NCBI RefSeq assembly: GCF_026676115.1
Contig: NZ_JAPONB010000002.1
Span: forward strand, 1 to 64,000
DNA from: Salinimicrobium sp. TH3
Lineage (GTDB): Bacteria > Bacteroidota > Bacteroidia > Flavobacteriales > Flavobacteriaceae
DNA: 64,000 nucleotides
Direction: 5' to 3'
The notes beneath the pieces are model-generated. The model had not been told where the DNA came from. It searched no databases and worked only from the letters and a program-made list of their open reading frames with translations. The position numbers and the translations under genes are program-made. Every line of letters starts with the position of its first letter. Position 1 is the first letter of the stretch. Shown piece after piece: positions 27,539 through 48,718 of this stretch.

Positions 27539-27581
27539 TGACCTACGTCATATTTTCCAATCTGCTCATTTTCAACCTTTG
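27539..27581 (+). promoter_or_regulatory. FNR/CRP-type promoter of ccoI
   Basis: TGACCTACGTCA (27539-27550), a TGA-N6-TCA palindrome, is centred exactly 33 bp before AACCTTTG (27574-27581), a -7 box one base off TANNTTTG. The start codon follows 27 bases later. This is the class II activator geometry shared by four other promoters in the window. Confidence 0.65.
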
Positions 27582-27607
27582 TACCCGGTACGAAACGAGC
27601 AATTTTT

Positions 27608-29977
27608 ATGGAGGAACTTTCTTGTTATCACTGTGGTGATACGATTAAGTCATGTGTTAGCTTTGATGACAAGTCTTTTTGCTGCAATGGCTGTAAGACC
27701 GTTTATGAAATATTTTCAGAAAACGGACTTTCTTCTTATTATGATATGGAAGCCACGCCCGGTGCGGCACCGGCACAATTTGAAGGGAAATATGACTTTC
27801 TTAGCAATGAAAAAATTGCAGATAAACTGCTGGAGTTCAATGACGGGAACATTCAGGTAATCTCCCTGTACATTCCTCATATCCACTGCAGTTCCTGCAT
27901 CTGGATCCTCGAAAACCTCAACAAGCTAAAACCGGAGATCACCGCATCACAAGTGGATTTCCCGAAGAAAAGTCTTCGTATTACCTACAATTCAGAAAAG
28001 TTAAGTTTAAAAGACCTGGTCTTATTTATCAGCAGTATTGGTTACGAGCCCTACATAAGTCTTGATGACACCGAAACCGGAAAAAAGAAGATCAACCGCA
28101 GCATCATCTATAAACTGGGGGTTGCAGGTTTTGCCTTTGGGAATGTAATGTTCCTCTCTTTCCCCGAATATTTTGATGTCAATGAATACTGGCTGGAACA
28201 ATATAAAGGCCTTTTTAGGTGGTTAATGTTTGCTTTTTCCCTCCCGGTAGTTTTTTATGTCGCGCAGGATTACTTTATCTCTGCCTACAAAGGCCTGCGG
28301 GCAAAAATCCTCAACATTGATGTGCCGCTCGCCCTTGGCGTACTGGTGCTCTTTGTACGTAGCACATTAGAAATAACTTTTGACTGGGGATCCGGCTTCT
28401 TTGACAGTCTTACAGGTCTTGTATTTTTCCTTACTCTGGGGAAATTCTTTCAGCAAAAGACTTACAATTTCCTCTCTTTTGAGAGGGACTACAAATCATA
28501 TTTCCCCATTGGTATCACCCGCATAAATCCCGACGGGAAAGAGGAGAGTATACATGTGCACGATATTGAAAAAGGTGACAGGATCTTAATAAGGAATGAA
28601 GAACTTATTCCTGTGGATGGCATTCTTATCAATGGGAATGCCCGTATTGATTACAGCTTTGTAACAGGAGAATCTGAAGCTGTGCAGAAGGAATCGGGAG
28701 ATAAATTATATGCAGGAGGGCGGCAGGTTTCGGGCATGATCGAGATGGAAGCTCTCAAATCGGTTTCTCAAAGTTACCTTACAAAATTATGGAGCAATGA
28801 TGTTTTCCAGGTTAAAAAGGAAGACTCCTTCACCTCTTTCATCAACCATATAAGCAAGTACTTCACTATTGTATTACTTTTAATCGCTTTTACGGCAACA
28901 GCCTGGTGGGCATTTTTGGATTTTGCCACCGCGATCAATGTCTTTACAGCAGTATTAATAATTGCCTGTCCCTGTGCGCTTGCCATGTCCACACCATTCA
29001 CCCTTGGAAACCTCTTGAGGATCTTTGGCAACAAAAAGTTTTATCTGAAAAATGCCGGTGTGATCGAGCAGCTCGCCAAAGCCGATACTTTGATCTTTGA
29101 CAAAACAGGAACCATCACCTCCAATAAAAAAAGCAGCATTAGTTATGAAGGAATTACCCTTACTGCTGAAGAAGAATCTCTCCTTAAGAACACGCTTCGC
29201 GCATCAAATCATCCTTTGAGCCGCAAATTATATGATATGCTGGCCGAATATGATATTACCGCACCCGAAGAATTTCGCGAAGTCACAGGAAAAGGAATTG
29301 AAGCCGTACACCAAAAGCAGGCGATGAAAGTGGGATCGGCCGAATTTGTGGGAAATACCGTTCTTGCACCAACCCTTAACACTTCGGTACACATTAGCTC
29401 GAACAATGAATACAAAGGCAGGTACGTTTTTTTCAATGAATATCGTGAGGGGGTAAAAGATCTTTTTTCTGAACTGGCTCCACATTACCAGCTTTCCATT
29501 CTTTCGGGAGATAATGAAGGAGAAAAGGAGAGACTTGAAAATCTTCTGCCGGTAAATACTAAAATGCTCTTCAACCAAAAGCCGGAGAGTAAGCTCAATT
29601 ACATTGCCTCTCTTCAACAGAAGGGAAGAAAAACCATTATGGTGGGCGATGGTCTTAATGATGCCGGGGCACTGGCAAAAAGTGAGGTGGGAATAGCAAT
29701 CTCAGAAAATGTAAATGTCTTCTCCCCCGCCTGTGATGCTATTCTGGATGCAAGCAGGTTTGACAGTCTTTTTAAGTTCATTAAAGCTTCAAAGTCGGCA
29801 ATGAAGGTGATCAAGATAAGTATGATCCTGTCCTTTTTATATAATGTCGTGGGTCTTTATTTTGCGGTTACCGGGCAACTATCCCCAATTATCGCGGCTA
29901 TTCTTATGCCTTTAAGTTCAATAAGTATCATTGCTTTCACTACAGTATGCACCAATTTCATTGGCCGCAGGATTTAA
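27608..29977 (+). CDS. ccoI: Copper-translocating P1B-type ATPase, CcoI/FixI type
   Basis: The 789-residue protein pumps copper needed to assemble cbb3 oxidase. Its N-terminal Cys-rich module (C6, C9, C16, C25-C26, C29) is typical of CcoI/FixI in this phylum. A heavy-metal-associated domain with CSSC (94-97), eight membrane spans, the CPC motif (about 453-455), DKTGT phosphorylation site (about D498), SNHPLS and the GDGLNDAGAL hinge follow. An FNR-type site lies upstream, matching those of the cco operon 9 kb away. Confidence 0.9.
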   Translation: MEELSCYHCGDTIKSCVSFDDKSFCCNGCKTVYEIFSENGLSSYYDMEATPGAAPAQFEGKYDFLSNEKIADKLLEFNDGNIQVISLYIPHIHCSSCIWILENLNKLKPEITASQVDFPKKSLRITYNSEKLSLKDLVLFISSIGYEPYISLDDTETGKKKINRSIIYKLGVAGFAFGNVMFLSFPEYFDVNEYWLEQYKGLFRWLMFAFSLPVVFYVAQDYFISAYKGLRAKILNIDVPLALGVLVLFVRSTLEITFDWGSGFFDSLTGLVFFLTLGKFFQQKTYNFLSFERDYKSYFPIGITRINPDGKEESIHVHDIEKGDRILIRNEELIPVDGILINGNARIDYSFVTGESEAVQKESGDKLYAGGRQVSGMIEMEALKSVSQSYLTKLWSNDVFQVKKEDSFTSFINHISKYFTIVLLLIAFTATAWWAFLDFATAINVFTAVLIIACPCALAMSTPFTLGNLLRIFGNKKFYLKNAGVIEQLAKADTLIFDKTGTITSNKKSSISYEGITLTAEEESLLKNTLRASNHPLSRKLYDMLAEYDITAPEEFREVTGKGIEAVHQKQAMKVGSAEFVGNTVLAPTLNTSVHISSNNEYKGRYVFFNEYREGVKDLFSELAPHYQLSILSGDNEGEKERLENLLPVNTKMLFNQKPESKLNYIASLQQKGRKTIMVGDGLNDAGALAKSEVGIAISENVNVFSPACDAILDASRFDSLFKFIKASKSAMKVIKISMILSFLYNVVGLYFAVTGQLSPIIAAILMPLSSISIIAFTTVCTNFIGRRI

Positions 29978-30170
29978 TCATTCCCCTCAAAATTCTTCTC
30001 CTTTTTCACTTTTAATTTTTTTTAAAAAAAAGTTGGGAATAAAAAGGAAAATCGGGTAAATTGGGACTGTGATTAAATTATTTGTTTCCCTGCTATTTGC
30101 AGGGAGAGCCAACTAGGAAGCAACCCCCTACTTGCTTCTTGTTGTTTCCTTCTATAAGCTTTCTCCTTAC

Positions 30171-30347
30171 ATGCTTTTTTCAAAGAGTTTTTTATTGAAG
30201 CTAACCGGGCTACTATTTATAGTTGCTGGAATAGCCTTACGATTTTCATATTTTGAATCTGCTTTCTCTCCCTCCATCTTAGGCGGACTTATTGGCGGGG
30301 GATCTGTTCTGCTTTTTGGAATAGGCAGAAAAGAAAACAGGCCATAA
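30171..30347 (+). CDS. Small membrane protein, function unknown
   Basis: A 58-residue ORF from ATG 30171 with two hydrophobic segments (LLKLTGLLFIVAGIAL and ILGGLIGGGSVLLFG) and a basic tail. A TTG 13 codons upstream is a less likely start. There is no recognised family. It sits between ccoI and the small ORF at 30.4 kb. Confidence 0.5.
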   Translation: MLFSKSFLLKLTGLLFIVAGIALRFSYFESAFSPSILGGLIGGGSVLLFGIGRKENRP

Positions 30348-30383
30348 AATAAGAGGTTCCAAAAATGACATTTTTGACAGCCG

Positions 30384-30611
30384 ATGAAAAAACCTCCTTA
30401 CCCTGAGTATCCAAAAATAGCTTCTGAAGAGATCCTTTTCAGAAAGATTAAGCTCGAAGAACTTTCAGAACTTCTCATCATTTCCTTCTACGATGGAAAA
30501 CAGGCCAAAAATGAAACCGAAGCTGCAGCGATGCTTCACAGAATTGAAAATGATTGTCTCAATGGGGAAAACATTCACTGGGGGTTACCTCTCAGAAAAA
30601 TTTCAGGATGA
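30384..30611 (+). CDS. Small hypothetical protein
   Basis: A 75-residue, charged, probably cytosolic ORF (MKKPPYPEYPKIASEEILF, then LSELLIISFYDGKQAKNETEAAAML). No domain is recognised. Its stop overlaps ATG of a 32-codon ORF (30608-30706), and the DNA beyond looks degenerate, so this may be the intact front end of a decayed locus. Confidence 0.45.
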   Translation: MKKPPYPEYPKIASEEILFRKIKLEELSELLIISFYDGKQAKNETEAAAMLHRIENDCLNGENIHWGLPLRKISG

Positions 30612-31249
30612 TCACTTCACTGGAGCGTTTAAACTTCAGGAAAACTAAGAAAGTGGGTGAAGAAGTGCAGTCCGAAATCCTGCGAAAGGGATTTATTCAG
30701 CATTAAGAAGACCAAAGAACATGATAGGAAACAGGTACTATTACCGCAAATTTACAGCCTTCCGAATTAAAGTACCTTGAGGAGCATTTGGAAAATGATG
30801 CACAGCACTTAATGTTGAAGAAGGACCGGGCTGCATTCTTGCTTCCGGAGGACAGAAGTCTGGATTCGATTCGGGAAATTTGACAGGAGCTCATCCTGCG
30901 TTTCAAAGGCTGGAAATTCAAAAGGAGCTTACGCTTTTTAGGATCTAAGAAATTCACAAAGAACCCGTTGCGAAAAAGATCGTAGTAAGGACAACCCGCC
31001 AAGCAGAAAGTTTTTATATACGGGCTTTCAAAAAAGGCATTTTAAGAAGATTTCTTGGCGCCGGGTCTTGACCTTTGCCAGATGAAGTTGCACTTATTAC
31101 CAACTAATCCTAAATTTATCAAAGGTGCTAAATATCATTATTTTACACGCACCGATTTTCTAAATTTAATAATATCTGCCGCCACAATAGAGCAAAGGGA
31201 AATTTTGCTTCATGAATCCCCCCTGGCAGTCCTTTAAAAATCAGGAAAT
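30612..31249 (+). pseudogene. Degenerate coding-like region, no intact gene
   Basis: About 640 bases lack an ORF over about 60 codons with a convincing start. Plus-strand frames show protein-like stretches broken by stops and shifts: MIGNRYYYRKFTAFRIKVP then, one frame over, LQPSELKYLEEHLENDAQH and, after a stop, KGWKFKRSLRFLGSKKF. This suggests one or two decayed genes. The parent family is not recognised. No terminator or promoter stands out before the ATPase gene. Confidence 0.35.
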
Positions 31250-33943
31250 ATGGAAATGTCCTGGTATCAAATGAGTTCCGAAGAGGTGATGAAGAAACTC
31301 GACACCTCCCCCGGTGGCTTGTCATCTGGCCAACACAACAGCAGGCAACAGAAGTATGGAAAAAACCTCCTGCCAAAAAAAAAGAAAATAACCCTCATCA
31401 GATTGTTTTTCGCCCAGTTCCTCAATTCACTTATTTATGTCTTACTGGCAGCAGCCCTTGTGGCTCTTTTATTGGGAGAATATTCAGATGCTATTTTTAT
31501 TTTCCTGGTCCTCCTCGTTAATGCGGGCATAGGTACTTTTCAGGAATGGAAGGCAGAAGAAAAAGCATCTGCCCTGGAAAACCTTATCAAGCTACGCGTC
31601 AAGGTAAGGAGGAACAATCAGGTTATTGTGGTTGACAGTGAAGACCTGGTGCCCGGTGATGTCGTTTTGATGGAATCGGGGAACAAGGTACCGGCAGACA
31701 TAAGGGTAATCAATTACAACAATTTAATGGCAGAAGAAGCTATTCTCACCGGGGAGTCCAAAGCCATAGAGAAAGACAGCAGCGCCATTATAAAAGAAAA
31801 TGTTGGAGTGCCCGATCAAACCAACATGCTGTTTGCCGGCACCACCATAACAACAGGAAGAGGTACCGGGATAGTTGTCTCTACAGGAATTGAAACCGAG
31901 ATCGGGAAGATTGCATCTTCCCTTCAGGAACTTGAGACAGGCAAGGCGCCACTGGTAAAGAGAATGGAGATCTTTACGCGTAAAATAACATATATCGTCC
32001 TGGCAGCCAGTATGGTCCTGGGAATTATGGGATATTACTTTGGCATTCCTGTAAAAGAGATTTTCTTTTTCGTCGTGGCCGTGGCAGTATCGGCCATTCC
32101 GGAAGGTTTACCTATTGCCATGACGGTTGCGCTTTCCATAGGTGGATCTAGAATGGCCAAAAGAAACGTAATCATTCGAAAACTCACAGCCGTTGAGGGT
32201 CTTGGCAGCTGCACCTTCATAGCGACAGATAAAACAGGAACCTTAACAGTTGACCAGCAAACCGCAAGAATACTGATATTGCCGGGGCCAACAGCACTCA
32301 AAGTCACAGGTGAAGGTTATAACGGCGAAGGAAAGATAGTTTCACGGGGTGGTGACGAAGTTCTTTTAAATGAATCAAGTGATCTCCAAAAGCTACTTAA
32401 GGCCGTATCCATATGTAATGAAGGGAACCTCAATTATATTGATGGCAGCTGGTCATTTTCGGGAGATCCCATAGATGTTGCTTTATTGGGCCTCCCTTTT
32501 AAAGCCGGAACATCCCCGGAAAAATTTCAAGCTCAAATTAATAAGGTGAAAGAGGTGCCATTTGAGTCGGCCCGACAATTTGCTGCAGTATATTATAAAC
32601 AGGGGGAAACTGAGGAGCTCCAAATTGCTGTTAAAGGTGCTGTTGAAAAAATAAAGGATCATATAGATGCTAAAAAATATGCTCCTCTTTTGGAAGAGGC
32701 CGCCAACCATGCGGAAAGCGGCTATCGAATTATTGCTGTCGCGGGAGGAACTGCAGATAAAATATTACCTGCAGGGGAGCTCCCTCATCTGGAACTGTTA
32801 GGGTTTATTGCCCTAATAGATCCATTACGGCCCGAAGCAGCACCAGCAGTGAAAGAATGCCATGCCGCAGGAGTACAAGTCGCAATGGTCACGGGAGATC
32901 ATCCTGCAACTTCGCTTGCTATTGCTAAAGAAGTAGGCATTGCAAACATGCAGGAGCAAGTCATTACCGGAACTGAATTGAGTTCTATCGAGAACGCTCC
33001 CGAAAAGCTGACCAATATCCTACGGACAAAGCGGGTTTTTGCCAGGGTCACACCGCAACAGAAACAAATGATAGTTGAATCCATAAGAGAATCAGGACAT
33101 TTAATTGCGGTAACCGGAGATGGAGTAAACGATGCTCCGGCACTTAAAACGGCAAATATTGGAGTCGCAATGGGCTATGGAACAGATGTGGCAAAAGACA
33201 CCGCATCTATTATCATTAGTGACAATAACTTTGCATCTATTGCTGCAGGTATTGAAGAAGGGCGTTTCACCTATAGCAATTTGAGGAAGATCATTTACCT
33301 GCTCATTTCCACAGGGGCGGCCGAATTACTCACCATTGGTCTTTCTCTGGCCTTCCTGTTACCACTGCCTTTCCTTCCTGTACAGCTATTGTGGCTCAAC
33401 CTGGTCACTAACGGGATACAGGATGTTGCCCTGGCCTTTGAAGCAGGAGAAAAAAAAGTTATGCTTCAACCTCCCAGAAAACCTAATGAGCCCATTTTTG
33501 ACCCGCTCATGATAAAACAAACCCTACTCTCTGCTGCAGTAATAGCATTGCTGGCTTTTGGCTTATGGTATCATTTGCTTAACCAACTTCATTGGGAGGA
33601 ACAACCTGCAAGAAATGCGGTGCTGATGCTAATGGTTTTACTTCAAAACTTCCACACCTTTAATTGCCGGTCGGAGACCAGATCTGCATTTAGAATTCCG
33701 GTAAAAAAGAACCTGGTTTTACTTTTTGGAGTTTTAGGAGCTCAAAGCCTTCATATCCTGGCTTTGCAGACCCCCTTTATGCAAACCTTATTAAGCCTCA
33801 ATCCCCTTCCACCAAGGCACTGGGTGTACCTTTTCTTTTCTGCTTCTTTGATACTGGTGGCGATGGAATTGTTTAAATTATTAGTTGCCAAAAAAGAAGT
33901 TGAAAAACAACGAACCCTCAATGGCCGGGGCACAACAGTATAG
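31250..33943 (+). CDS. P2-type cation-transporting ATPase
   Basis: The 897-residue protein has the P-type ATPase layout: N-terminal cation-ATPase domain (1-60), actuator TGES (in LTGESKAI), M4 PEGLP, DKTGTLT (about D327), nucleotide domain, GDGVNDAPAL (about 623-632) and a C-terminal six-helix bundle. It resembles Ca2+ (SERCA/PMR1-like) pumps, but the M6 motif reads NLVTNGIQD rather than the Ca2+-pump NLVTDG. Ion selectivity is therefore uncertain. ATG 31250 is the natural start. A strong terminator follows. Confidence 0.88.
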   Translation: MEMSWYQMSSEEVMKKLDTSPGGLSSGQHNSRQQKYGKNLLPKKKKITLIRLFFAQFLNSLIYVLLAAALVALLLGEYSDAIFIFLVLLVNAGIGTFQEWKAEEKASALENLIKLRVKVRRNNQVIVVDSEDLVPGDVVLMESGNKVPADIRVINYNNLMAEEAILTGESKAIEKDSSAIIKENVGVPDQTNMLFAGTTITTGRGTGIVVSTGIETEIGKIASSLQELETGKAPLVKRMEIFTRKITYIVLAASMVLGIMGYYFGIPVKEIFFFVVAVAVSAIPEGLPIAMTVALSIGGSRMAKRNVIIRKLTAVEGLGSCTFIATDKTGTLTVDQQTARILILPGPTALKVTGEGYNGEGKIVSRGGDEVLLNESSDLQKLLKAVSICNEGNLNYIDGSWSFSGDPIDVALLGLPFKAGTSPEKFQAQINKVKEVPFESARQFAAVYYKQGETEELQIAVKGAVEKIKDHIDAKKYAPLLEEAANHAESGYRIIAVAGGTADKILPAGELPHLELLGFIALIDPLRPEAAPAVKECHAAGVQVAMVTGDHPATSLAIAKEVGIANMQEQVITGTELSSIENAPEKLTNILRTKRVFARVTPQQKQMIVESIRESGHLIAVTGDGVNDAPALKTANIGVAMGYGTDVAKDTASIIISDNNFASIAAGIEEGRFTYSNLRKIIYLLISTGAAELLTIGLSLAFLLPLPFLPVQLLWLNLVTNGIQDVALAFEAGEKKVMLQPPRKPNEPIFDPLMIKQTLLSAAVIALLAFGLWYHLLNQLHWEEQPARNAVLMLMVLLQNFHTFNCRSETRSAFRIPVKKNLVLLFGVLGAQSLHILALQTPFMQTLLSLNPLPPRHWVYLFFSASLILVAMELFKLLVAKKEVEKQRTLNGRGTTV

Positions 33944-33947
33944 AAAC

Positions 33948-33979
33948 AAAAAAAGCTGCTATACAGCAGCCTTTTTTTA
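33948..33979. terminator. Bidirectional terminator between the ATPase and the nirK operon
   Basis: A7, stem GCTGCT/AGCAGC with loop ATAC, then CT7. It serves both the plus-strand ATPase and the convergent SCO gene. Confidence 0.85.
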
Positions 33980-35412: not shown

Positions 35413-36864
35413 TTATTTTACTTCTTTTACCATTTTCTGAGTAACTTCAGTCTTATTGTTGCCCCAGTTGTTGTACACATAAGTAAGTACGGCAGCAACA
35501 TCTTCATCTGAAATATTTTGTTTGGGCATAGCACTGTTGTATGCGTTGCCATTCACTTCAATCTCTCCCGTCAATCCAAATTTCACGACCTCGATTGCTC
35601 TGTGAACATCGGCATTTAGATAATCTGACTCTGCAAGTGGAGGGAAAGCATTAGGAATACCTGCACCGGTTGCCTGGTGACATGCAAGACAATTTTGAGT
35701 ATAGATCTGTTTACCTCTTTCCATCTTATCTGCCATCGACATTTCGGCTACCTGCTCTCCGTCATTTGTTTCTTCAGCAACTTCGCTAACAGATGTACCG
35801 GGATTATAAATTTTCTCTTCGATTTTACCACCAAAGACTTTTTCATTTTCTTCTCCTTCAACTTTTAGGATACCCAAGGCTCCCTTATTGAAAGCTCTGA
35901 AGATCGAGTGGTCAACCAATACCAGGTTACCTGGAACTTCAACCTTAAACTCAACAATGGCAGCGCCACCGGCAGGGATGAGTGTTGTTTGCACATTCTC
36001 ATTAATCATAGCTCCACCTTCAACATATACTTTGTCAAAGATCTCCCCAATTACGTGGAAGGAAGAGACAAGATTGGGTCCACCATTACCTACGAACAAA
36101 CGTACAGTTTCTCCAACTTTTGCAGTTAGGGCATTATCTCCTGTTAATCCACCAACTTTTCCATTGAAGACTACATAATCTGCATCTTCATCAATTGCTT
36201 TGTCCATACTAAAAGCCTGAAGCCCTCTTTCTCCATTCTCACCTTCGGTATAGAAATCCCCCTGCATTACATAGTATTCTTTATCCACCGGCTCAAGACC
36301 ACCTTCTGGTTCAACCAGGATAAGACCGTACATTCCATTTGCGATGTGCATTCCCACAGGAGCGGTAGCACAGTGATATACATAAAGCCCGGGGTTCATG
36401 GTCTTAAAGGTAAATACGGCTTCGTGCCCCGGAGCTACGAAAGAAGATTCGGCACCACCACCGGGTCCGGTCACTGCATGAAGGTCAATATTGTGAGGCA
36501 GTTTTGAATCGGGGTGGTTTTTAAGGTGAAATTCAATTTCATCCCCTACCCTTGTACGAATAAAGCTTCCGGGTACGGTACCGTCAAAGGTCCAGTACAC
36601 ATAGGTTACTCCGTCGCTCATTTCCATTTCTTTTTCCACTACCTCCATATTAACCACAAGTTTGGTAGCAGCTCTTTTTCCAACTGGTCTTGGAACCATT
36701 GGAGGAGCAGTCATTTCGGCTTCACTCTCTCCATACACCTTCATTAGTTCGGGATTTTCTTTTGCAGCCACTGCTTTTTCGCAGGAAGTAAACAGACCCG
36801 CTACAAGGGCTGCCAGGAAGAAAACGTATACAATACTTCTTTTTGAATTTTTGAAATTTTTCAT
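35413..36864 (-). CDS. nirK: Copper nitrite reductase with fused C-terminal cytochrome c domain
   Basis: The 483-residue lipoprotein (lipobox Cys28) reduces nitrite to NO. Two cupredoxin domains carry the type 1 copper ligands H124, C165, H173 and M178, and the type 2 ligands H129, H164 and H319. Active-site D127 and H270 are also present. A linker (about 350-375) leads to a haem c domain with CLACH (392-396) and Met446. The fusion lets the enzyme take electrons through its own haem. It is the first gene of nirK-nirV-SCO with an FNR-type site upstream, and it implies NO production by partial denitrification. Confidence 0.94.
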
Positions 36865-36895: not shown

Positions 36896-36938
36896 CAAAT
36901 GTCCGAATTAAGAACACTCCTGAATATGAGCGTAATCA
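36896..36938 (-). promoter_or_regulatory. FNR/CRP-type promoter of nirK
   Basis: On the minus strand TGATTACGCTCA (36927-36938) is centred 33 bp before GACATTTG (36896-36903), a -7 box close to TANNTTTG. The nirK ATG lies about 32 bases further on. It is adjacent to, and divergent from, the ccoS promoter. Confidence 0.65.
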
Positions 36939-36980: not shown

Positions 36981-37023
36981 TGATCGAAATCATATTTCCC
37001 AAAAACCAATGCCTGTAGCTTTG
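36981..37023 (+). promoter_or_regulatory. FNR/CRP-type promoter of the cco operon
   Basis: TGATCGAAATCA (36981-36992) is centred 33 bp before a perfect TANNTTTG -7 box, TAGCTTTG (37016-37023). The ccoS start follows after 17 bases. The site is closest to the E. coli FNR half-site TTGAT/ATCAA. Confidence 0.72.
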
Positions 37024-37040: not shown

Positions 37041-37229
37041 ATGAGCGTCATCTATTTACTCCTTACAATAAGCATTATTGTAGCGGTATTGTTTTTCGTT
37101 GTTTTTATCCTGGCTGTACGTAGTGGCCAGTTCGACGATGACTATACCCCTTCTGTGCGTATTCTTTTTGAGGATGAGCTTGTCAAAGAGAAATCAACAA
37201 AATCGAGTAAAATTAATCAAGACAATTAA
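37041..37229 (+). CDS. ccoS: cbb3 oxidase assembly protein CcoS
   Basis: The 62-residue protein has one N-terminal membrane span (IYLLLTISIIVAVLFFVVFI) followed by SGQFDDDYTPSVRILFED, the typical CcoS motif (GQFDDxxxPxxRILxED). CcoS is needed to insert cofactors into CcoN. It is the first gene of the cco operon, 3 bp before ccoNO. Confidence 0.93.
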   Translation: MSVIYLLLTISIIVAVLFFVVFILAVRSGQFDDDYTPSVRILFEDELVKEKSTKSSKINQDN

Positions 37230-37232: not shown

Positions 37233-39422
37233 ATGGAATTGCAACAGTTCTACTACGACAACAAAATCGTTAAAAAGTTCCTTTATGCTACCCTTTTCTG
37301 GGGAGTTATCGGAATGTCAGTCGGGCTTCTTTTGGCCTTCTTATTCCTGTTCCCTAACCTAACCGACGGAATTTCCTGGTTAAGTTTTGGACGCCTGCGC
37401 CCACTGCATACCAATGCGGTGATTTTTGCTTTCGTAGGAAATGCCATTTTTGCGGGAGTATATTACTCCACCCAACGCCTGCTCAAAGCCAGGATGTACA
37501 GTGACATCCTTAGCAGCATCAACTTTTGGGGCTGGCAATTGATCATTGTTGGAGCGGCAATCACCCTCCCCCTTGGGTTCACCAGTTCAAAGGAATACGC
37601 CGAGCTGGAATGGCCCTTTGACATTGCGATTGCAGTAGTTTGGGTAGTTTTTGGATGGAACCTTATTGCCACTATTTTTAAGAGAAGACAAAGACATTTA
37701 TATGTAGCCATCTGGTTCTATATCGCAACTTTTGTCACTGTTGCAGTACTGCACATCTTCAACAGTCTAGCAATACCTGTAGGCTTATTTAAGAGTTACT
37801 CTGTTTACGCCGGAGTGCAGGACGCATTGGTACAATGGTGGTACGGGCATAATGCCGTTGCTTTTTTCCTTACCACGCCTTTCCTGGGACTTATGTATTA
37901 CTTTGTTCCCAAGGCTGCCAACAGGCCGGTTTACTCCTATAAATTATCTATTATCCACTTTTGGTCCCTTATCTTTATTTATATCTGGGCGGGGCCACAC
38001 CACTTGTTATATTCATCCCTGCCAGACTGGGCTCAAAACCTTGGAGTTGCGTTTTCGGTGATGCTATTGATGCCATCATGGGGTGGTATGATCAACGGAC
38101 TTCTAACGCTTCGCGGAGCATGGGATAAAGTAAAGACAGATCCTGTTTTAAAGTTCATGGTGGTAGCGATCACGGGCTACGGTATGGCAACTTTTGAAGG
38201 ACCCATGCTATCCCTAAAAAATATTAATGCCATCGCCCACTTTACAGATTGGATCATAGCCCACGTTCACGTAGGCGCCCTTGCCTGGAACGGGTTCTTA
38301 ACCTTTGGAATGGTCTACTGGCTGGTACCAAGAATGTTCAAAACCAAACTGTATTCCATTAAACTTGCAAATGCGCACTTCTGGACAGGTACTTTAGGTA
38401 TTATCCTTTATACTTTACCAATGTATGTTGCCGGTTTTGTTCAGGCTTCCATGTGGAAACAATTCAACCCGGATGGTACACTAGTCTACGGAAACTTCCT
38501 TGAGACGGTGACCGAAATCATGCCTATGTACTGGTTTAGAGCTATTGGAGGTAGTATGTATATAGCCGGAATGTTCATCCTTTTATGGAACGTATATAAG
38601 ACCATTAAAAGTGGTAGTGAAGTCACAGACGAACTGGCCGAAGCTGCACCACTACAAAAAATTAGCAATAGAAGGCTTGCGGGAGAAGGTTTCCATACCT
38701 GGTTAGAGCGCAAACCTGTCCAGCTTACCATATTAGCTACTATTGCCATCCTTATTGGAGGTATTATACAAATTGTTCCTACGATCCTGGTGAAGTCTAA
38801 TATTCCTACTATTACCAGCGTGAAACCCTATACTCCTCTGGAACTGGAAGGAAGGGATATTTACATAAGAGAAGGGTGTGTCTCCTGTCACTCACAAATG
38901 ATACGTCCTTTTAGAAGTGAAGTTGAACGCTACGGAGAATATTCAAAAGCAGGAGAGTATGTGTACGATCACCCATTCCTGTGGGGCAGTAAACGTACCG
39001 GCCCGGACTTAATGAGGGTGGGCGGCAAGTATTCGGATAACTGGCACTTTAACCACATGTACGATCCACAAAGTACCTCATCGGGTTCAATCATGCCGGG
39101 TTATAAATGGCTTATTACAGATAAGCACGACCGTTCAAACATAGAGGATAAAATGGAAGCCATGGTAGAACTGGGTGTACCCTATACAGAGGCCGAAATT
39201 GCCAATGCACAGGCTCATATGGAGGAACAGGCCACACAAATCCAGGAGAACCTTTATAGCGATCCAGATTTTGTAGCTACCTATGAAGCCGACAAGAAAT
39301 ATGCAGAGGAGCAGGGACTTGACTTTGTGGAAATGAAAGAGCGGGAAATCGTTGCCCTTATCGCGTATATACAGCGATTAGGAACAGATATTAAAGTGGT
39401 GAATTCAACAACCTCAAATTAA
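37233..39422 (+). CDS. ccoNO: Fused cbb3 cytochrome c oxidase subunits I and II (CcoN-CcoO)
   Basis: The 729-residue membrane protein joins the haem-copper subunit CcoN (about 1-480, 12 or more spans; haem and CuB histidines in PLHTNAVIFAF, WWYGHNAVAF, GPHHLLY and WIIAHVHVGAL) to the monohaem subunit CcoO (about 490-729; CVSCH at 549-553, then SQMIRPF). Such a fusion is common in Bacteroidota. It reduces O2 at low concentration while pumping protons. Met in GSIMPGY is the probable distal haem ligand. Confidence 0.94.
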   Translation: MELQQFYYDNKIVKKFLYATLFWGVIGMSVGLLLAFLFLFPNLTDGISWLSFGRLRPLHTNAVIFAFVGNAIFAGVYYSTQRLLKARMYSDILSSINFWGWQLIIVGAAITLPLGFTSSKEYAELEWPFDIAIAVVWVVFGWNLIATIFKRRQRHLYVAIWFYIATFVTVAVLHIFNSLAIPVGLFKSYSVYAGVQDALVQWWYGHNAVAFFLTTPFLGLMYYFVPKAANRPVYSYKLSIIHFWSLIFIYIWAGPHHLLYSSLPDWAQNLGVAFSVMLLMPSWGGMINGLLTLRGAWDKVKTDPVLKFMVVAITGYGMATFEGPMLSLKNINAIAHFTDWIIAHVHVGALAWNGFLTFGMVYWLVPRMFKTKLYSIKLANAHFWTGTLGIILYTLPMYVAGFVQASMWKQFNPDGTLVYGNFLETVTEIMPMYWFRAIGGSMYIAGMFILLWNVYKTIKSGSEVTDELAEAAPLQKISNRRLAGEGFHTWLERKPVQLTILATIAILIGGIIQIVPTILVKSNIPTITSVKPYTPLELEGRDIYIREGCVSCHSQMIRPFRSEVERYGEYSKAGEYVYDHPFLWGSKRTGPDLMRVGGKYSDNWHFNHMYDPQSTSSGSIMPGYKWLITDKHDRSNIEDKMEAMVELGVPYTEAEIANAQAHMEEQATQIQENLYSDPDFVATYEADKKYAEEQGLDFVEMKEREIVALIAYIQRLGTDIKVVNSTTSN

Positions 39423-42262: not shown

Positions 42263-42709
42263 ATGAAAATATCCTGGGGTACAGCCATAGTGTTGGCAAT
42301 GATAAGTTTTATCGCTTTTATTATGTTCTTTGTAATTACAATGAGCACAGATGATAAATACAGCCACGACCTTGTTGTGGAAGAATATTACAAAAATGAA
42401 CTCACCTTTGAGAACCAATTGGATAAGACCAGGAATGCCTCAAAATTGTCAGAAAATATTAACCTGAAAAAAACTCCTGAAGGACTGGTGGTGACTTTTC
42501 CTCAAGAACTAACAGCATCAAAAATTACAGGAAATGTGTTCCTTTACCGGCCGTCTAACAAGCAGTTGGACTCTGAGATTCCTCTCTCATTGTCTTCACA
42601 TCAATTGCTCGTACCTGAAAGAAGCTTGATAGGCGGCCGCTGGAACATTATTATAGACTGGGAGTACCAGGGCGATAAATTCTATTTTAAAGAAGATATC
42701 ATTTATTAA
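42263..42709 (+). CDS. fixH: FixH family protein
   Basis: The 148-residue protein has one N-terminal span (GTAIVLAMISFIAFIMFFVI) and a periplasmic beta domain. VEEYYKNELTFENQLDKTRNA and GGRWNIIIDWEYQGD match FixH/CcoH, needed for cbb3 assembly with the copper pump. Its last base is shared with the next start codon region (TAATG). Confidence 0.87.
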   Translation: MKISWGTAIVLAMISFIAFIMFFVITMSTDDKYSHDLVVEEYYKNELTFENQLDKTRNASKLSENINLKKTPEGLVVTFPQELTASKITGNVFLYRPSNKQLDSEIPLSLSSHQLLVPERSLIGGRWNIIIDWEYQGDKFYFKEDIIY

Positions 42710-43410: not shown

Positions 43411-43463
43411 TTCCCGAGTCTTTTTAGAATCTGCTGGTTTGGAGTGGAAATCATTTCTGCCTT

Positions 43464-43488
43464 CCGGACATATTTATCCGGTTTTTAC
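43464..43488 (+). terminator. Probable terminator of the cco operon
   Basis: Short stem CCGGA/TCCGG with 8-base AT loop followed by T5. The stem is weak. The rest of 43411-43716 is AT-rich with no supported gene. Confidence 0.45.
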
Positions 43489-43716
43489 ATTTAAACCCAC
43501 CCCACAATTGTTAAAATTTATTAAAACTATTTTCAAAAAATCCTTCTTTTTGGAGCTTTGGGGCAAAATATGATGGGAAAAATATGAGCATTATCAGCTT
43601 TTTGAAGGAGCTACAGGGAAAAATAACCGCCAATGCTCTCATTTTGCTGCTATTATAGGAAAAGTTAATATGAACTTAAATATATCTAAGACAGGTTCAA
43701 GAATTTCGTCGAAACC

Positions 43717-43759
43717 TGACCCGCGTCATACTGCATACTTCATTTCTACCCCATCTTTG
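43717..43759 (+). promoter_or_regulatory. FNR/CRP-type promoter of the first yceI gene
   Basis: TGACCCGCGTCA (43717-43728) is centred 33 bp before CATCTTTG (43752-43759), a -7 box one base off TANNTTTG. The start codon follows after 23 bases. GTCA half-sites match those of the ccoI site. Confidence 0.67.
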
Positions 43760-43782
43760 TATCATAATTAAAAACAAAAATC

Positions 43783-44373
43783 ATGAAAACAACAAAGAAA
43801 TTTTCCTTAGGACTTGTAAGCTTCCTTCTAATGGTTTTTTCAGTTCAAACCTCAATAGGACAGAACTTCAATATCAATAAAGGAGCATCAAATCTAAAAG
43901 TGCTTGGGACATCAAACATCCACGATTGGGAATTAGATGCAAAAGATTTCCAGGGAAACCTAAAAGCTCAATTAGAAGACGGACAATTGGTAAAGATTGA
44001 TGAGTTAAACTTTGCTGTTGTTGCCGAAAGCCTTAAGAGTGGTAAAGGAGGTATGGATAAGAATACTTACAAAGCCCTTGATACCGATAAGCACCAGAGG
44101 ATCACATTCCAACTTCAAAATGTTAAGAACATCGATTGTACCTCCAAAACAAATTGTAAAGTAACCACTTCCGGATACCTTACTATCGCAGGGACAAAAA
44201 AATCGGTAGAACTAATTTTTGACGCAAAAGTAACCGGAGATAAGATAACATTGTCTGGAAACCATAAACTTAAAATGACAGATTTTAAAGTGGATCCTCC
44301 AACAGCAATGTTCGGAACAATTACCACCGGCGATGAAGTAAACATCAAGTTTCAAACTGTATTCACTAAATAA
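43783..44373 (+). CDS. YceI family exported lipocalin-like protein
   Basis: The 196-residue protein has a signal peptide (ending QTSIGQ) and a YceI beta-barrel: STSNIHDWELDAKDFQGNL-type start, MDKNTYKALDTDKHQRITFQL in the middle, and LKMTDFKVDPPTAMFGTITTGDEV at the end. YceI proteins bind isoprenoid or other lipids in the periplasm. The FNR-type promoter places it in the low-oxygen/NO group, possibly as a quinone-handling protein (inference). Confidence 0.88.
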   Translation: MKTTKKFSLGLVSFLLMVFSVQTSIGQNFNINKGASNLKVLGTSNIHDWELDAKDFQGNLKAQLEDGQLVKIDELNFAVVAESLKSGKGGMDKNTYKALDTDKHQRITFQLQNVKNIDCTSKTNCKVTTSGYLTIAGTKKSVELIFDAKVTGDKITLSGNHKLKMTDFKVDPPTAMFGTITTGDEVNIKFQTVFTK

Positions 44374-44426
44374 TTAATCAAAAGCAAATTTTTAAAATTC
44401 AACTATCAACTTTTTAATTTATCAAA

Positions 44427-45734
44427 ATGAAAAACTTAATTAAATATTCCGGTATTGCTCTCTTGATGGCCATAGGTTATCAGGCACAGGCACAAGATGT
44501 AGATGTATTGGTTGTGGAAGATGAGAACACCACTCTTTGGGACAGAAGCCTTCCTAACTATAGATATCCAGATCAACGCGGCATCAGCACGTTCGAACCT
44601 AACAAAGACATCGTTTATGGTGATTTTGAAGGAGTACAGGTGAGACTGGGTGGAGCATTCGCACTACAATTCCAGGGACTTGACCAGGAAAACACTGCCA
44701 ATACAGTACATGAACTAGGTAAGGATTTCAACCTTGCTACTGCAAACATGACTTTTGACATTTTGCTTGCAAAAGGAGTTAGAGTACACCTTAACACCTA
44801 TCTTTCTTCTCAACACCACCCGGAAGCTTATGTAAAAGGTGGATACCTTCAGGTAGACAACCTTGACTTCATCAGCGAAGGTCTGGCTTCAGGTCTAATG
44901 GAGCATTTGAGAATTAAGTTTGGTCACATGGAAAATAACTATGGTGATGCTCACTTTAGAAGATCTGATAACGCAATGGCTCTTTACAACCCATTCGTTG
45001 GAAACTACCTAATGGACAGCTTTACTACAGAAGTAGGTGGAGAGATCTATTTCTTCAATAACGGATGGTTAGCTATGGGAGGATTTACTAACGGTAAATT
45101 AAACCAGTCTACCGTTGGAGAAGGTCACACCAGCCCATCTTGGTTAGCAAAAATTGGATATGACAAACAAATCACTGAAGATTTCAGATTCAGATTAACT
45201 GGATCTCTATTCCACGCTCCACATAACAATGGAAGAGGTATTTACCTTTACAGTGGAGACCGCGCAGGTTCAAGATACTACAATGTTATGACTGGTCCTG
45301 ACGGCGGAGACGGCTTTAGAGCTGGTAGAATCAACCCAGACCTTAAGAACGAAATGACTGCTTTCATGATCAACCCTTTCATCAAAGTAGGTGGACTTGA
45401 ATTCTTCGGAATCTACGAATCTGCATCTGGAAAAAAAGTATCTGAAACAGATGACAGAACTTTCAACCAATATGCTGGTGAACTTATCTACAGATTTGGT
45501 GCAACTGAAGACTTCTACGTAGGTGCACGTTACAACACTGTAAACGGTGAACTGGAAACTGGTGATGATGTTACTATCAACCGCTTCAACGTAGGTGGTG
45601 GATGGTTTATGACCAAGAACATCCTTACAAAAGTGGAATATGTAAACCAGGAGTATAACGACTACCCAACAGGAGACATCCACCAGGGAGGAAAATTCAA
45701 CGGATTCAACATTGAAGCAGTTATTAGCTTCTAA
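44427..45734 (+). CDS. Outer-membrane porin-like beta-barrel
   Basis: The 435-residue protein has a signal peptide (ending YQAQAQ) and many short alternating strands. GDFEGVQVRLGGAFALQFQG opens the barrel, FGHMENNYGDAHFRRSDNA resembles phosphate-selective-porin loops, and the C-terminus ends in the aromatic Phe of outer-membrane proteins (EAVISF). It is probably a porin for a small anion or organic acid. It sits between two yceI genes. Codon use is strongly biased, which suggests high expression. Confidence 0.75.
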   Translation: MKNLIKYSGIALLMAIGYQAQAQDVDVLVVEDENTTLWDRSLPNYRYPDQRGISTFEPNKDIVYGDFEGVQVRLGGAFALQFQGLDQENTANTVHELGKDFNLATANMTFDILLAKGVRVHLNTYLSSQHHPEAYVKGGYLQVDNLDFISEGLASGLMEHLRIKFGHMENNYGDAHFRRSDNAMALYNPFVGNYLMDSFTTEVGGEIYFFNNGWLAMGGFTNGKLNQSTVGEGHTSPSWLAKIGYDKQITEDFRFRLTGSLFHAPHNNGRGIYLYSGDRAGSRYYNVMTGPDGGDGFRAGRINPDLKNEMTAFMINPFIKVGGLEFFGIYESASGKKVSETDDRTFNQYAGELIYRFGATEDFYVGARYNTVNGELETGDDVTINRFNVGGGWFMTKNILTKVEYVNQEYNDYPTGDIHQGGKFNGFNIEAVISF

Positions 45735-45759
45735 ACATAAGATTCGTTTGAACTAGCCG

Positions 45760-45792
45760 AAAATGGGGGAACTAAAATTCCCCCATTTTTTT
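45760..45792 (+). terminator. Terminator after the porin gene
   Basis: AAATGGGGGAA-CTAAA-TTCCCCCATTT stem followed by T8. The promoter of the next gene overlaps its tail (TATCTTTA at about 45793). Confidence 0.88.
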
Positions 45793-45805
45793 TATCTTTA
45801 AAAAA

Positions 45806-46378
45806 ATGAAAAAAATTGCGTTTGTATTATTGGTGCTTTTTTGTGGTGCGGTAACACACGCACAGAACTTCCAAAAGAGAGAAATTACGGTTCTGCCTTC
45901 CAGCGACCTTACAATCATTGGAGATTCCAACATTGCAGCTTTTCAATGCGAGTTTGACAATTCTTATCTTCAAGACTCCCAGAATATTTCCTATAACCAA
46001 ACAGGAAATAAGATCGAATTTCAAGGAGCTGTTCTTATTCTTAACAACAAAGGTTTCGACTGTGGAAGCAAAGGCATCAACCGGGACTTTCACGATCTCC
46101 TGGAGACCGATGACCACCCACAAATACTATTAACCCTCAACAAAGTAGTTCTTTCTTCACCTCAAAAAGGTATGGCAACTGTTGGCATCACCATAGCAGG
46201 AAAAGAAAAATTTTATGAGGTGCCTGTAACTATCAAAAATGCTGCAATAGCAGAATTTAAAGGAAAACTCCTGTTAAACATTAAAGACTATGGACTTGAG
46301 CCTCCAAAAAAGCTCTTTGGAATGATCGTCGTAAAAGATGTAATTGAAATAAAATTTGATCTTCTTGTAAAAAAATAA
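45806..46378 (+). CDS. YceI-like exported protein
   Basis: The 190-residue protein has a signal peptide (ending VTHAQ) and a diverged YceI fold: LTIIGDSNIAAFQCEFDN, then RDFHDLLETDDHPQILLTL and DYGLEPPKKLFGMIVVKDVIEI, parallel to the paralogue at 43.8 kb. It has two Cys in the central part (QCEF and FDCGSKG). It is followed 6 bp later by the CoA-transferase gene, so they are probably co-transcribed. Confidence 0.8.
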   Translation: MKKIAFVLLVLFCGAVTHAQNFQKREITVLPSSDLTIIGDSNIAAFQCEFDNSYLQDSQNISYNQTGNKIEFQGAVLILNNKGFDCGSKGINRDFHDLLETDDHPQILLTLNKVVLSSPQKGMATVGITIAGKEKFYEVPVTIKNAAIAEFKGKLLLNIKDYGLEPPKKLFGMIVVKDVIEIKFDLLVKK

Positions 46379-46384
46379 GCAACT

Positions 46385-47659
46385 ATGGAATTATTATCTG
46401 CTGCCGAAGCTGTATCACATGTAAAAACGGGGGATAGGGTCTTCTTCCAGGGAGCGGCTATGACCCCAAATATTCTTATTGAAGCCCTTGTTGACCGCTA
46501 CAAAGAACTCAAAGATGTGGAGATCTTTCACATCCATACCGAAGGACCTGCCCGTTACACCCAAATACCATACAGGGAATCCTTCAGGCTTAACAGCTGT
46601 TTTGCTGCCGGAAATGTGAGAGACTTTGTAAACTCTGAATACGGAGCTTATATCCCAATTTTCCTTAGCGAGATCCATTTGTTATTCAGAAGAAATATAT
46701 TACCGCTGGACGTAGCCTTTATACAGGTTTCTCCTCCAGATAAACATGGCTTTTGTTCCCTGGGAGTATCGGTGGATATTACCCTGCCTGCAATTCAAAC
46801 TGCCAAAAAGGTTATTGCACAAATAAATCCACAAGTACCAAGAACCCACGGCGACGGAATTATACATATAAGCAGGATCACTGCCGCAGTAGAGACAGAT
46901 GTGCCATTACATTCGCATGAACCAACAGAAGCTTCTGAAATTGAGAAGCAAATTGGAAAAAATGTAGCCGAACTTATTGAAGACGGTGCTACCCTGCAAA
47001 TGGGAATTGGCGGAATTCCCAATGTCGTTCTCAACAACCTCATGAACCATAAACGGCTGGGAATTCATACCGAAATGTTTTCTGACGGAGTTTTACCCCT
47101 TATTGAAAAGGGAATTATTACAGGAGAAGAAAAAGAGGTGAAAACCGGGAAAATTGTTACCTGCTTCGCTTTGGGATCCCCAAGATTATACGATTTCATT
47201 GATGATAATCCCATAGTTCATTTTAAGGAAGCCGCATATACCAATGACACTGCCATAATTAGGAAAAACCCAAAGGTTACTGCCATTAACAGCGCAATTG
47301 AAATAGATCTTACCGGCCAGGTTTGTGCAGACACGATTGGCACCTATCAATACTCGGGCGTTGGGGGACAAATGGATTTTATTCGCGGTGCTTCCCTTTC
47401 AGAAGGTGGTAAGGCTATTATCGCATTGCCATCGGTTACGGCAAAGGGAATTTCAAAGATCGTCCCTAATCTTAGAGAGGGAGCAGGTGTTACCACCACC
47501 AGGGCTCACGTTCACTATATCGCTACTGAATACGGTGTGGTGAATCTTTACGGGAAAAACCTGAAACAGCGGGCTAAGGCTCTAATTTCCATCGCTCACC
47601 CCGATCACAGGGAGGCTCTGGAAGAGGAGGCTTATCATAGGATCAATAAAACACGCTAG
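46385..47659 (+). CDS. Acetyl-CoA hydrolase / 4-hydroxybutyrate CoA-transferase family
   Basis: The 424-residue cytosolic class I CoA-transferase has an N-terminal half with HIHTEGPARY and an IQVSPPDKHGFCSLG motif. The C-terminal half has LQMGIGGIPN, the probable catalytic Glu in SAIEIDLTGQV and the GVGGQMDFIRGA binding loop. It moves CoA between acetate, butyrate or succinate-type acids; the acid pair cannot be read from sequence. Linked with yceI, thioredoxin and crp/fnr genes, it may serve low-oxygen acetate metabolism (inference). Confidence 0.88.
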   Translation: MELLSAAEAVSHVKTGDRVFFQGAAMTPNILIEALVDRYKELKDVEIFHIHTEGPARYTQIPYRESFRLNSCFAAGNVRDFVNSEYGAYIPIFLSEIHLLFRRNILPLDVAFIQVSPPDKHGFCSLGVSVDITLPAIQTAKKVIAQINPQVPRTHGDGIIHISRITAAVETDVPLHSHEPTEASEIEKQIGKNVAELIEDGATLQMGIGGIPNVVLNNLMNHKRLGIHTEMFSDGVLPLIEKGIITGEEKEVKTGKIVTCFALGSPRLYDFIDDNPIVHFKEAAYTNDTAIIRKNPKVTAINSAIEIDLTGQVCADTIGTYQYSGVGGQMDFIRGASLSEGGKAIIALPSVTAKGISKIVPNLREGAGVTTTRAHVHYIATEYGVVNLYGKNLKQRAKALISIAHPDHREALEEEAYHRINKTR

Positions 47660-47722
47660 CGAAAAAAGCTTTCTAAAACAGGCATTTTTGAGTACCTTTA
47701 TTATGCTTAAAAAAAGGAAAAT

Positions 47723-48022
47723 ATGAAAAGTAACTTCAGCGAAATCATCAAGGACAACAAACCTGTACTTGTAGATTTCTTTGCCGACTGGTGTGGCCCG
47801 TGTAAAACACTCGCGCCTATCCTAAAAGATGCCAAAGCCGACCTGGGTGAAAAGGTTAAGATCGTTAAAATCGATGTGGATAAGAATCAAGCCCTGGCCG
47901 CAAAATATCAGGTGCGGGGGGTGCCTACATTGATCCTTTTTAAGAATGGGGAACAATTATGGAGACAATCGGGCGTAGTTCCAAAAGGAGATCTGGTTCA
48001 GCTTATCAACTCCCACCAGTAG
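47723..48022 (+). CDS. Thioredoxin
   Basis: The 99-residue thioredoxin has the redox centre WCGPCK (near 25-30), the cis-Pro motif RGVPTL and [13 protein letters not shown]. It is distinct from the second thioredoxin at 60.0 kb. It lies 4 bp ahead of the crp/fnr gene, so the two share a transcript. Confidence 0.93.
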
Positions 48023-48026
48023 GTCT

Positions 48027-48620
48027 ATGATAGATGAAAACCTGTTGCTTAATCATGGGGCAAAAAGAGTGACCTTTTCCAAGGGGGACCAGTTGTTTCG
48101 GGAAGGAGAGAGCGCCCTTAATTTCTACCAGATAGCTTCAGGAGAAATTAAAATGAATAACTACAATGAAGACGGCAAGGAGTTCATTCAGGGTATTTTC
48201 TCAATAGGTCAAAGTTTTGGTGAACCACCACTGCTGGCAAATGTCAAATATCCTGCAAACGCCGAAGCTATTTCAGATTCCGAAGTTTTTCAGCTTACAA
48301 AAGAGCAATTCCTTGAACTACTTTCCTCAAATCCCCGGGTACATCTAAAAATTACCGAAACCCTGGCAAAACGACTTTACTACAAAGCCATTATGGTTTC
48401 AGAAATTTCAAGTCAGGAACCGGAACATCGTATCTTAAGGATAATTGATTATTTAAAACACGTGGATAAGGTGGAAGGCCAGTTTGCATACCGGCTGGAT
48501 CTTACCCGGCAGCAACTTGCCGATCTTACAGGCCTAAGGGTTGAGACTGTTATCAGGGCCACAAAGTCCCTGGAGAAGAAGGGAGAACTACAGATAAAGA
48601 AAAGGAAAGTTTACCGGTAA
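48027..48620 (+). CDS. Crp/Fnr family transcriptional regulator
   Basis: The 197-residue protein has a cyclic-nucleotide-type beta-roll (about 10-115), a dimer helix and a winged helix (LTRQQLADLTGLRVETVIRA). Its recognition helix VETVIR matches E. coli FNR VETISR, and the Glu/Arg pair that reads TGA in FNR/CRP is kept. There is no cysteine anywhere, so an FNR iron-sulfur cluster is impossible. A haem/NO (DNR-like) or ligand-free mode is more likely. It is a strong candidate for the regulator of the five TGA-N6-TCA promoters in this window. Confidence 0.9.
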   Translation: MIDENLLLNHGAKRVTFSKGDQLFREGESALNFYQIASGEIKMNNYNEDGKEFIQGIFSIGQSFGEPPLLANVKYPANAEAISDSEVFQLTKEQFLELLSSNPRVHLKITETLAKRLYYKAIMVSEISSQEPEHRILRIIDYLKHVDKVEGQFAYRLDLTRQQLADLTGLRVETVIRATKSLEKKGELQIKKRKVYR

Positions 48621-48641
48621 AATCTCATAATCAACTTTTTA

Positions 48642-48718
48642 TGATCATTATCAGGGACAATAATGTCCGCTTTTATGATCCTAATCATATGATCTCCTCA
48701 CCTATCCCTTTAATTTTA
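48642..48718 (+). promoter_or_regulatory. Double FNR/CRP-type promoter upstream of the membrane protein/haemoglobin pair
   Basis: Two TGA-N6-TCA sites, TGATCATTATCA (48642-48653) and TGATCCTAATCA (48676-48687), lie 34 bp apart. The second is centred 33 bp before TAATTTTA (48711-48718), a -7 box one base off TANNTTTG. The start codon follows 24 bases later. Confidence 0.68.

Follow-up and report, generated by a model that had tools for sequence, protein, structure and literature searches.

A CRP/FNR-type regulon of low-oxygen and nitric oxide genes in Salinimicrobium and its candidate regulators

The window analysed here comprises positions 1 to 64,000 of contig NZ_JAPONB010000002.1 from Salinimicrobium sp. 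TH3 (assembly GCF_026676115.1). It carries five promoters of a single layout, in which a palindrome of the CRP/FNR type, TGA-N6-TCA, precedes a -7 box at a fixed distance. A preliminary description had placed such palindromes upstream of ccoI, nirK, ccoS, the first yceI, and a gene pair encoding a membrane protein and a truncated haemoglobin (trHb), with an extra site at the latter. A pattern scan of the window recovered all of them, at 27539, 36927, 36981, 43717, 48642, and 48676. Read from the window sequence, the distance between the centres of the palindrome and of the -7 box is exactly 33 bp at 5/5 promoters, as had been claimed, and the gap from the box to the start codon is 17-31 nt, almost the range given earlier (17-32). 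The boxes resemble TANNTTTG, which is matched exactly only at ccoS; those of ccoI, nirK, yceI, and the membrane protein/trHb pair have one mismatch each.

The predicted class II promoter of ccoI (27539..27581, forward strand) has its palindrome at 27539-27550 and its box, AACCTTTG, at 27574-27581, and its transcription start is predicted near 27586. The gene that follows encodes a ccoI-like heavy-metal P-type ATPase (27608..29977, forward), with an NCBIfam score of 325 bits, slightly below the cut-off of 346; we assume the name ccoI from the preliminary description, on the grounds of context. Two further promoters are divergent. That of nirK (36896..36938, reverse strand; palindrome 36927-36938, box GACATTTG at 36903-36896) serves a copper nitrite reductase identified by Pfam and NCBIfam (35413..36864, reverse), which carries a cytochrome c domain at its C-terminus (Pfam Cu-oxidase and Cytochrom_C). 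That of ccoS-ccoNO (36981..37023, forward; palindrome 36981-36992, box TAGCTTTG at 37016-37023) precedes ccoS (37041..37229, forward; NCBIfam) and a ccoNO fusion of the catalytic and mono-heme subunits of the cbb3 oxidase (37233..39422, forward; Pfam COX1 and FixO). The promoter of the first yceI (43717..43759, forward; palindrome 43717-43728, box CATCTTTG at 43752-43759) precedes a YceI-like protein recognised by Pfam (43783..44373, forward). Finally, the promoter of the membrane protein/trHb pair (48676..48718, forward; palindrome 48676-48687, box TAATTTTA at 48711-48718) has a second palindrome upstream (48642..48653, forward), 34 bp from the first between centres; the tandem (48642-48687) is a possible class III, or two-dimer, promoter. 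The pair consists of a small membrane protein of 96 aa without a family match in Pfam or NCBIfam (48743..49033, forward) and a group III truncated haemoglobin (49049..49435, forward), which has no Pfam or NCBIfam match and was identified by its structural match to 2ig3 (E 3.8e-11). Just upstream lies a regulator of the CRP/FNR family (R7, 48027..48620, forward), without cysteine and with the recognition helix VETVIR, which is a candidate second binder of these sites.

Activators of the CRP/FNR family occupy position -41.5 at class II promoters. The promoter map of Flavobacterium psychrophilum, as given in the main text of its report, locates the TAnnTTTG -7 box at -12 to -5 (PMC9723704), and a centre distance of 33 bp from a box at this position therefore puts the palindrome at -41.5, the transcription starts being predicted. 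With the palindrome predicted near -41.5 and the spacing to the sigma box rigid, the five promoters have, at the level of sequence, the layout of class II CRP/FNR-type activator promoters, with a presumed dependence on the regulator.

The palindrome alone occurs 32 times in the window, against 22.1 expected from shuffles (32 or more in 4/100), and the -7 box alone is not enriched (59 occurrences versus 67 expected). Neither density is informative taken singly, and the case therefore rests on the pairing of the two elements. The genome-wide scan for the pair at 33 bp, which the preliminary description had proposed, gave a sharp peak: the pattern TGAN6TCA-N(8..38)-TANNTTTG has 57 matches in the whole 3.69-Mb genome, including 17 at gap 23 (centre distance 33), compared with a mean of 1.33 and a maximum of 6 at the remaining 30 gaps (Poisson P ~1e-13 for the peak). 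The pattern TGAN6TCAT-N23-ANNTTTG has 25 matches in the genome, and its reverse has 1. With one mismatch permitted, the full pattern (with TCAT) has 66 matches versus 9 for the reversed one; judged by this control, roughly one in seven of the sites may reflect chance.

We re-found 65 of these 66 sites in the fetched stretches and the window (C19:201159 is the one left out), and classed as candidate promoters those that were not inside a longer open reading frame (ORF) and had an ATG within 120 nt. This filter retained 43 of the 65 sites, 12 of them exact and 31 with one mismatch. One (C16:216437), located within a short ORF, was nevertheless retained manually. The ccoS site passed via an ORF start at 114 nt that is spurious; the true start of ccoS is 17 nt beyond the box. 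The five window promoters are thus a small part of the candidates in this genome. The motif reads ATGAY-N4-RTCAT; in 84% of the 43 candidates, TGA is preceded by A or C, and in 14% by T. Selection of the 43 itself required the core letters and a T following TCA, with no more than one mismatch; among the gap-23 sites where the base after TCA was unforced, it is T in 14/17. The inner bases of the palindrome vary, giving both TGAT..ATCA and TGAC..GTCA. The motif differs from the FNR/DNR box, TTGAT-N4-ATCAA. The region from -33 to -30 is T-rich, and TTG is found there in just 2/43.

The Pfam and NCBIfam annotation of the targets outside the window includes many functions related to oxygen or nitric oxide (NO): hemN, nrfH, a PFL-like enzyme, the RIC/ScdA iron-sulfur repair protein, and proteins with a hemerythrin domain. 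Two hemerythrin-only or hemerythrin-PAS genes are within the 120-nt filter, and one more (L028) is at 151 nt. There are also five universal stress proteins (Usp), 2-oxoacid ferredoxin oxidoreductases (POR), and a ferredoxin; metabolic enzymes such as a malic enzyme/PTA fusion, formate-tetrahydrofolate ligase, glutamate dehydrogenase, and alcohol dehydrogenases; and a ferric-reductase-like protein, Hsp20, an Rrf2 regulator, and two regulators of the CRP family. Other targets show no evident connection with oxygen or NO: an MlaE permease, a CAAX protease, an MFS transporter, an HlyD protein, DeoC, a Cys/Met-metabolism enzyme, and a peptidase U32. Three targets (L016, L029, L035) have no Pfam match. 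The idea of a low-oxygen/NO regulon thus holds as regards the single rigid CRP/FNR-type layout and its non-random spacing, but the regulon is wider than had been described, since it extends to fermentation, heme synthesis, Usp, regulators, and some genes without an evident connection with oxygen. Similarly, the proposal that the target functions fit an FNR/DNR-type activator agrees with the many low-oxygen/NO targets, but the palindrome departs from the FNR/DNR box, and no four-cysteine regulator was found in the genome. In one locus (L012, C11:317000-323200), the motif is followed by RIC and then by a frame of 762 aa, which we take from its sequence to be an NO reductase of the quinol type; a separate motif precedes the Usp gene located upstream.

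Promoter conservation was read in nine of the eleven listed relatives of the same genus. The exact spacing is kept in 9/9 for ccoI, nirK, ccoS, and the membrane protein, and in 8/8 for yceI, which was not found in the ninth. The divergent site on the nirK side is present in 12/12 Salinimicrobium genomes, counting that of strain TH3, and lies upstream of a nirK match in 9/9 relatives. A motif lies at most 800 nt upstream of ccoN in 25/30 loci read. When the window is aligned with its genus relatives (omitting G124, which nearly duplicates the window, and with 8 rows for yceI), 63/65 columns of the core are invariant, versus 8/30 of the inner bases and 30/110 of the spacer. Summed over the 12 Salinimicrobium genomes, there are 113 motifs versus 2 reversed controls. 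The exact pattern is found in 73/118 genomes of the order, including 21/21 sampled genomes of the same family, which together have 171 motifs versus 4 reversed ones. In a second sample it is present in 34/37 genomes of the family, the three without any being G131, G136, and G152. The five promoters are genuine members of a larger low-oxygen/NO regulon, whose motif is present in most sampled Flavobacteriaceae. The single-gap peak, the few reversed matches, and the spacing kept across the genus also bear out the earlier claim that a chance origin of site, box, and spacing is unlikely.

The genome encodes eight proteins with a Crp-type helix-turn-helix (HTH) domain (HTH_Crp_2; R1-R8). The four cysteines common to 14/14 FNR-type proteins read in relatives (12 from the family, 2 from other families) are absent from 8/8 of them, and a strict FNR regulon, under a [4Fe-4S] oxygen sensor, was rejected on this ground. 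None of the 12/12 genomes of the genus has a match to the FNR-type protein at the level of an ortholog (best E 1e-24 to 1e-31, paralogs). Such a match occurs in 21/25 other genomes of the family, at 43-87% identity, counting the one of G146 (43%), which begins at residue 48 and does not cover the N-terminal cysteines. In 10/14 loci, the FNR-type gene and a ccoI-like gene, both named from sequence likeness, point away from each other, and the motif lies between them in 8 of those 10. In most of the family, one reader of the motif is probably this four-cysteine protein, whose gene often neighbours ccoI. At least one further regulator-like protein of this genome, a ninth, with a cyclic nucleotide (cNMP)-binding domain and without HTH_Crp_2, is encoded near R8 (L079:5676-6254, C11).

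Two of the eight regulators, R3 and R4, join a receiver (REC), a cNMP-binding domain, and a Crp HTH in one chain (PF00072, PF00027, PF13545). Among the matches listed, 11/12 genomes of the genus have two frames of REC-CRP length, and G118 (74% complete) has one. R4, a candidate with better linkage than R7, lies on another contig than the window (C11), together with a histidine kinase, in the order kinase, R4 (whose coordinates overlap the stop of the kinase gene), motif, Usp, motif, RIC, and the NO reductase-like frame. Downstream of R3, too, Hsp20 and Usp have promoters with a one-mismatch motif. We analysed the best 80 of 564 confirmed REC-CRP loci from named organisms, of which the closest are those of S. 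nanhaiense and S. catena (84% identity). A histidine kinase adjoins the REC-CRP gene in 80/80 of these loci, a motif (one mismatch permitted) lies at most 200 bp after it in 77/80, and in 68/80 the gene that follows begins like a Usp gene. The 993 kb of these loci contain 115 exact motifs versus 0 reversed ones, and the palindrome-box pair occurs there 117 times at gap 23 (next best gap, 9). The kinases have a heme-ligand-like histidine in 78/80 loci and a His-x19-Arg spacing, as in the register of FixL, in 67/80. The PAS domain of the kinase of this genome matches that of FixL (1d06, E 5.2e-7), and matches a multi-sensor kinase better (10jx, 2e-7). Aligned with 1d06, it has both the proximal His and the distal-side Arg in the FixL register; FixL uses the two residues to ligate the heme and to contact O2, respectively.

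The recognition helix E-x-x-I-R is common to the 14 FNR-type proteins, to R7, and to 71/80 of the named REC-CRP, the other nine helices having been missed by the regular expression. The helix of FNR in Escherichia coli is E-x-x-S-R. We presume that replacing its Ser by Ile would fit the A or C, instead of T, before TGA. In the phylogenetic tree, the clades of REC-CRP and R7 have high support (99/98 and 100/100). We used the tree for these two clades alone: the grouping of FNR-type proteins is weak (55/81), and the join between R7 and REC-CRP was flagged as a possible long-branch artefact.

We estimate at about 0.62 the probability that the regulon of Salinimicrobium is read mainly by the FixL-like kinase acting through REC-CRP, the five promoters being class II members of an anaerobic/NO regulon with its motif in most sampled genomes of the family, and R7 a local co-regulator. 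Low O2 (or NO) would alter the heme in the PAS domain of the kinase, a FixL-like heme-PAS histidine kinase that would phosphorylate the receiver of REC-CRP. The CRP half would then activate class II promoters: a dimer at ATGAY-N4-RTCAT, centred at -41.5, would contact the housekeeping RNA polymerase at the Bacteroidota -7 box TAnnTTTG, at promoters with a T-rich -33 region devoid of a TTG element. Such fusions appear to number usually two per genome, with at least one overlapping the end of a kinase gene. The whole would amount to a FixL-FixJ-FixK cascade in which the receiver of FixJ and the DNA-binding half of FixK are in one protein. R7, as a co-regulator of local scope and possibly with a link to NO, probably occupies overlapping sites. 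In this reading, the motif, its spacing and conservation, the gene content, the lack of the four cysteines, and the linkage of the genes are computed results, and the binding, the phosphorylation, the ligand, and the direction of the response are presumed. A further part of this reading stands at even odds, namely that the whole genus lost the iron-sulfur FNR and its entire anaerobic/denitrification regulon passed, site by site, to the kinase and the FixJ/FixK fusion, independently of Caulobacterales, while across much of the family the fusion would work alongside FNR.

The distribution of the motif among genomes of the family that lack the FNR-type protein speaks for the kinase and REC-CRP. 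Thirteen of these 16 have a match of REC-CRP length among those listed and 5-14 motifs, including G148 with 6; the other three, G131, G136, and G149, have no such match among those listed and 0, 0, and 1 motifs. Several observations weigh against the kinase and REC-CRP as the main readers, starting with this comparison: 12 of the 13 genomes are from one genus, so that they represent one evolutionary event and are not independent, and the presence of REC-CRP was judged by the length of the open frame among the matches listed, with one of the two matches of G136 outside them. G152 has an FNR-type match and yet no exact motif. Eight of the 21 family genomes have no full-length REC-CRP among the matches listed, yet have 2-12 motifs; therefore REC-CRP is not the sole reader in the family, and an FNR-type protein was read in 6 of those 8. 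At the level of the kinases, R3 has none adjoining it, and 13/80 of those in the named loci are without the His-x19-Arg register. The ninth cNMP-binding protein stands outside the comparison of regulators. Finally, R7 is also kept across the genus, beside targets, and its presence alone cannot separate it from REC-CRP.

In one alternative, R7 directly activates the five window promoters, sensing NO or the redox state, and REC-CRP drives only its own Usp/RIC neighbourhood. R7 has matches at 78-100% identity in 9/9 genus relatives examined, within ~12 kb of ccoN and beside trHb, its orthologs in G034 and G057 also lie beside a gene that we read as trHb-like, and its helix is of the E-x-x-I-R type. 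But R7 lacks cysteine, and among the matches listed its close orthologs (at least 55% identity) occur in only six other sampled genomes of the family (G034, G057, G017, G096, G002, G100), whereas the motif-rich G061 (17 motifs), G081 (15), G110 (18), G105 (13), and G114 (12) have best matches at the level of paralogs (E 1e-14 to 1e-18). The regulator at 48.0 kb, to which the preliminary description had looked, is therefore unlikely to be the master; as sole master it does not fit this distribution, and we consider its direct action at the five promoters improbable. Somewhat better placed, if still doubtful, is the idea that several regulators (R3, R4, R7, and here also R1/R2) bind one palindrome and split the regulon by signal, with no single master. 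R3, R4, and R7 share E-x-x-I-R, the genes of R1 and R2, with E-x-x-N-R, each have a one-mismatch motif upstream, and the variable inner bases of the palindrome could separate classes of sites. But an R1-like protein is listed in a single other genome of the genus, G124, and R1/R2 therefore cannot explain the conservation throughout the genus; they were rejected as masters, being seen within it, among the matches listed, just here and, for R1, in G124.

It is very improbable that a four-cysteine FNR-type protein is still in charge, either absent from the assembly or too divergent to be detected. The assembly is a draft of 21 contigs and most other genomes of the family have such a protein, but none of the 12 genomes of the genus, ten of which are at least 99% complete, has an ortholog-level match, the usual position of the FNR-type gene beside ccoI is occupied by another gene in the window, and the eight Crp-type HTH proteins lack the cysteines. 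That the palindrome-box pairs arose by chance in AT-rich intergenic DNA has a negligible probability, and is already refuted for the five sites: the slight enrichment of the palindrome in the window, the lack of one for the box, and the ~9/66 one-mismatch sites expected from the reversed control leave room for it, but it does not account for the sharp single-gap peak, the low reversed controls, and the exact spacing kept throughout the genus.

The reading in which a FixL-like kinase acts through REC-CRP has a parallel in Alphaproteobacteria. According to the sections of PMC4999443 consulted, Caulobacterales lost FnrN and FixLJ-FixK act on the old sites. The two systems have in common a heme kinase, a receiver, and an activator of the CRP/FNR family that lacks an iron-sulfur cluster, as well as cco, hemN, and (in Rhizobiales) nirK as targets, and the loss of the iron-sulfur FNR with the sites kept (same sections of PMC4999443). 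Unlike FixL-FixJ-FixK, the putative system of Salinimicrobium has the receiver and the CRP/FNR half in one protein, without a transcriptional step from FixJ to FixK, and it differs in phylum, -7 box, and palindrome. The regulons of FNR and DNR, which also have class II geometry, resemble this one by their CRP/FNR-type palindrome and similar target functions, whereas the palindrome ATGAY-N4-RTCAT, the helix E-x-x-I-R, and the failure to find the four-cysteine protein in the genus set Salinimicrobium apart. The sections of PMC1274295 consulted give the DNR and FNR box as TTGATnnnnATCAA and the sites of HcpR as TTGACnnnnGTCAA, wTGTGA-N6-TCACAw, and GTAACnnnnGTTAC variants. In the same sections, HcpR resembles our candidates by its CRP/FNR family, its role in nitrogen-oxide metabolism, and its presence in Bacteroides and Porphyromonas, and differs in palindrome; its predicted regulons in most Bacteroides species contain hcp alone (PMC1274295). 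Flavobacterium psychrophilum, which shares the TAnnTTTG -7 box at -12 to -5, induces the cbb3 oxidase and heme genes upon oxygen limitation, and the terms FNR, Crp, and palindrom are absent from the main text of that report (PMC9723704). A search of titles and abstract openings in PMC, which leaves most subscription papers outside, found no description of this motif or of the REC-CRP fusion.

The palindrome, its spacing, the targets, and the candidate regulators provide a testable map of low-oxygen/NO control in Flavobacteriaceae, and motif scans could predict when marine flavobacteria turn on nitrite and NO reduction. If the regulon did pass to the kinase and the fusion, the genus would have an oxygen switch of the two-component type in shortened form, in parallel with the replacement of FnrN by FixLJ-FixK in Caulobacterales. 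FNR regulons that outlive FNR would then have a second natural example, with a circuit simpler than FixL-FixJ-FixK, and the replacement of a regulator at fixed binding sites would become directly testable.

Some minor observations concern other members of these families. Two related genes of the CRP family in the genome of strain TH3 (L001, at 12.5 kb of C16, and L002, at 553.8 kb of C11) have the helix KETVNR and a one-mismatch motif upstream of each. On one contig of another genome (G066 C80; L067, L074), motif promoters are densely grouped near the genes for a REC-CRP, several Usp, and a PAS kinase of large size. R7-like proteins of the CRP family are strongly multiplied in f4 genomes, for example with 14 matches each in G035, G072, and G101.

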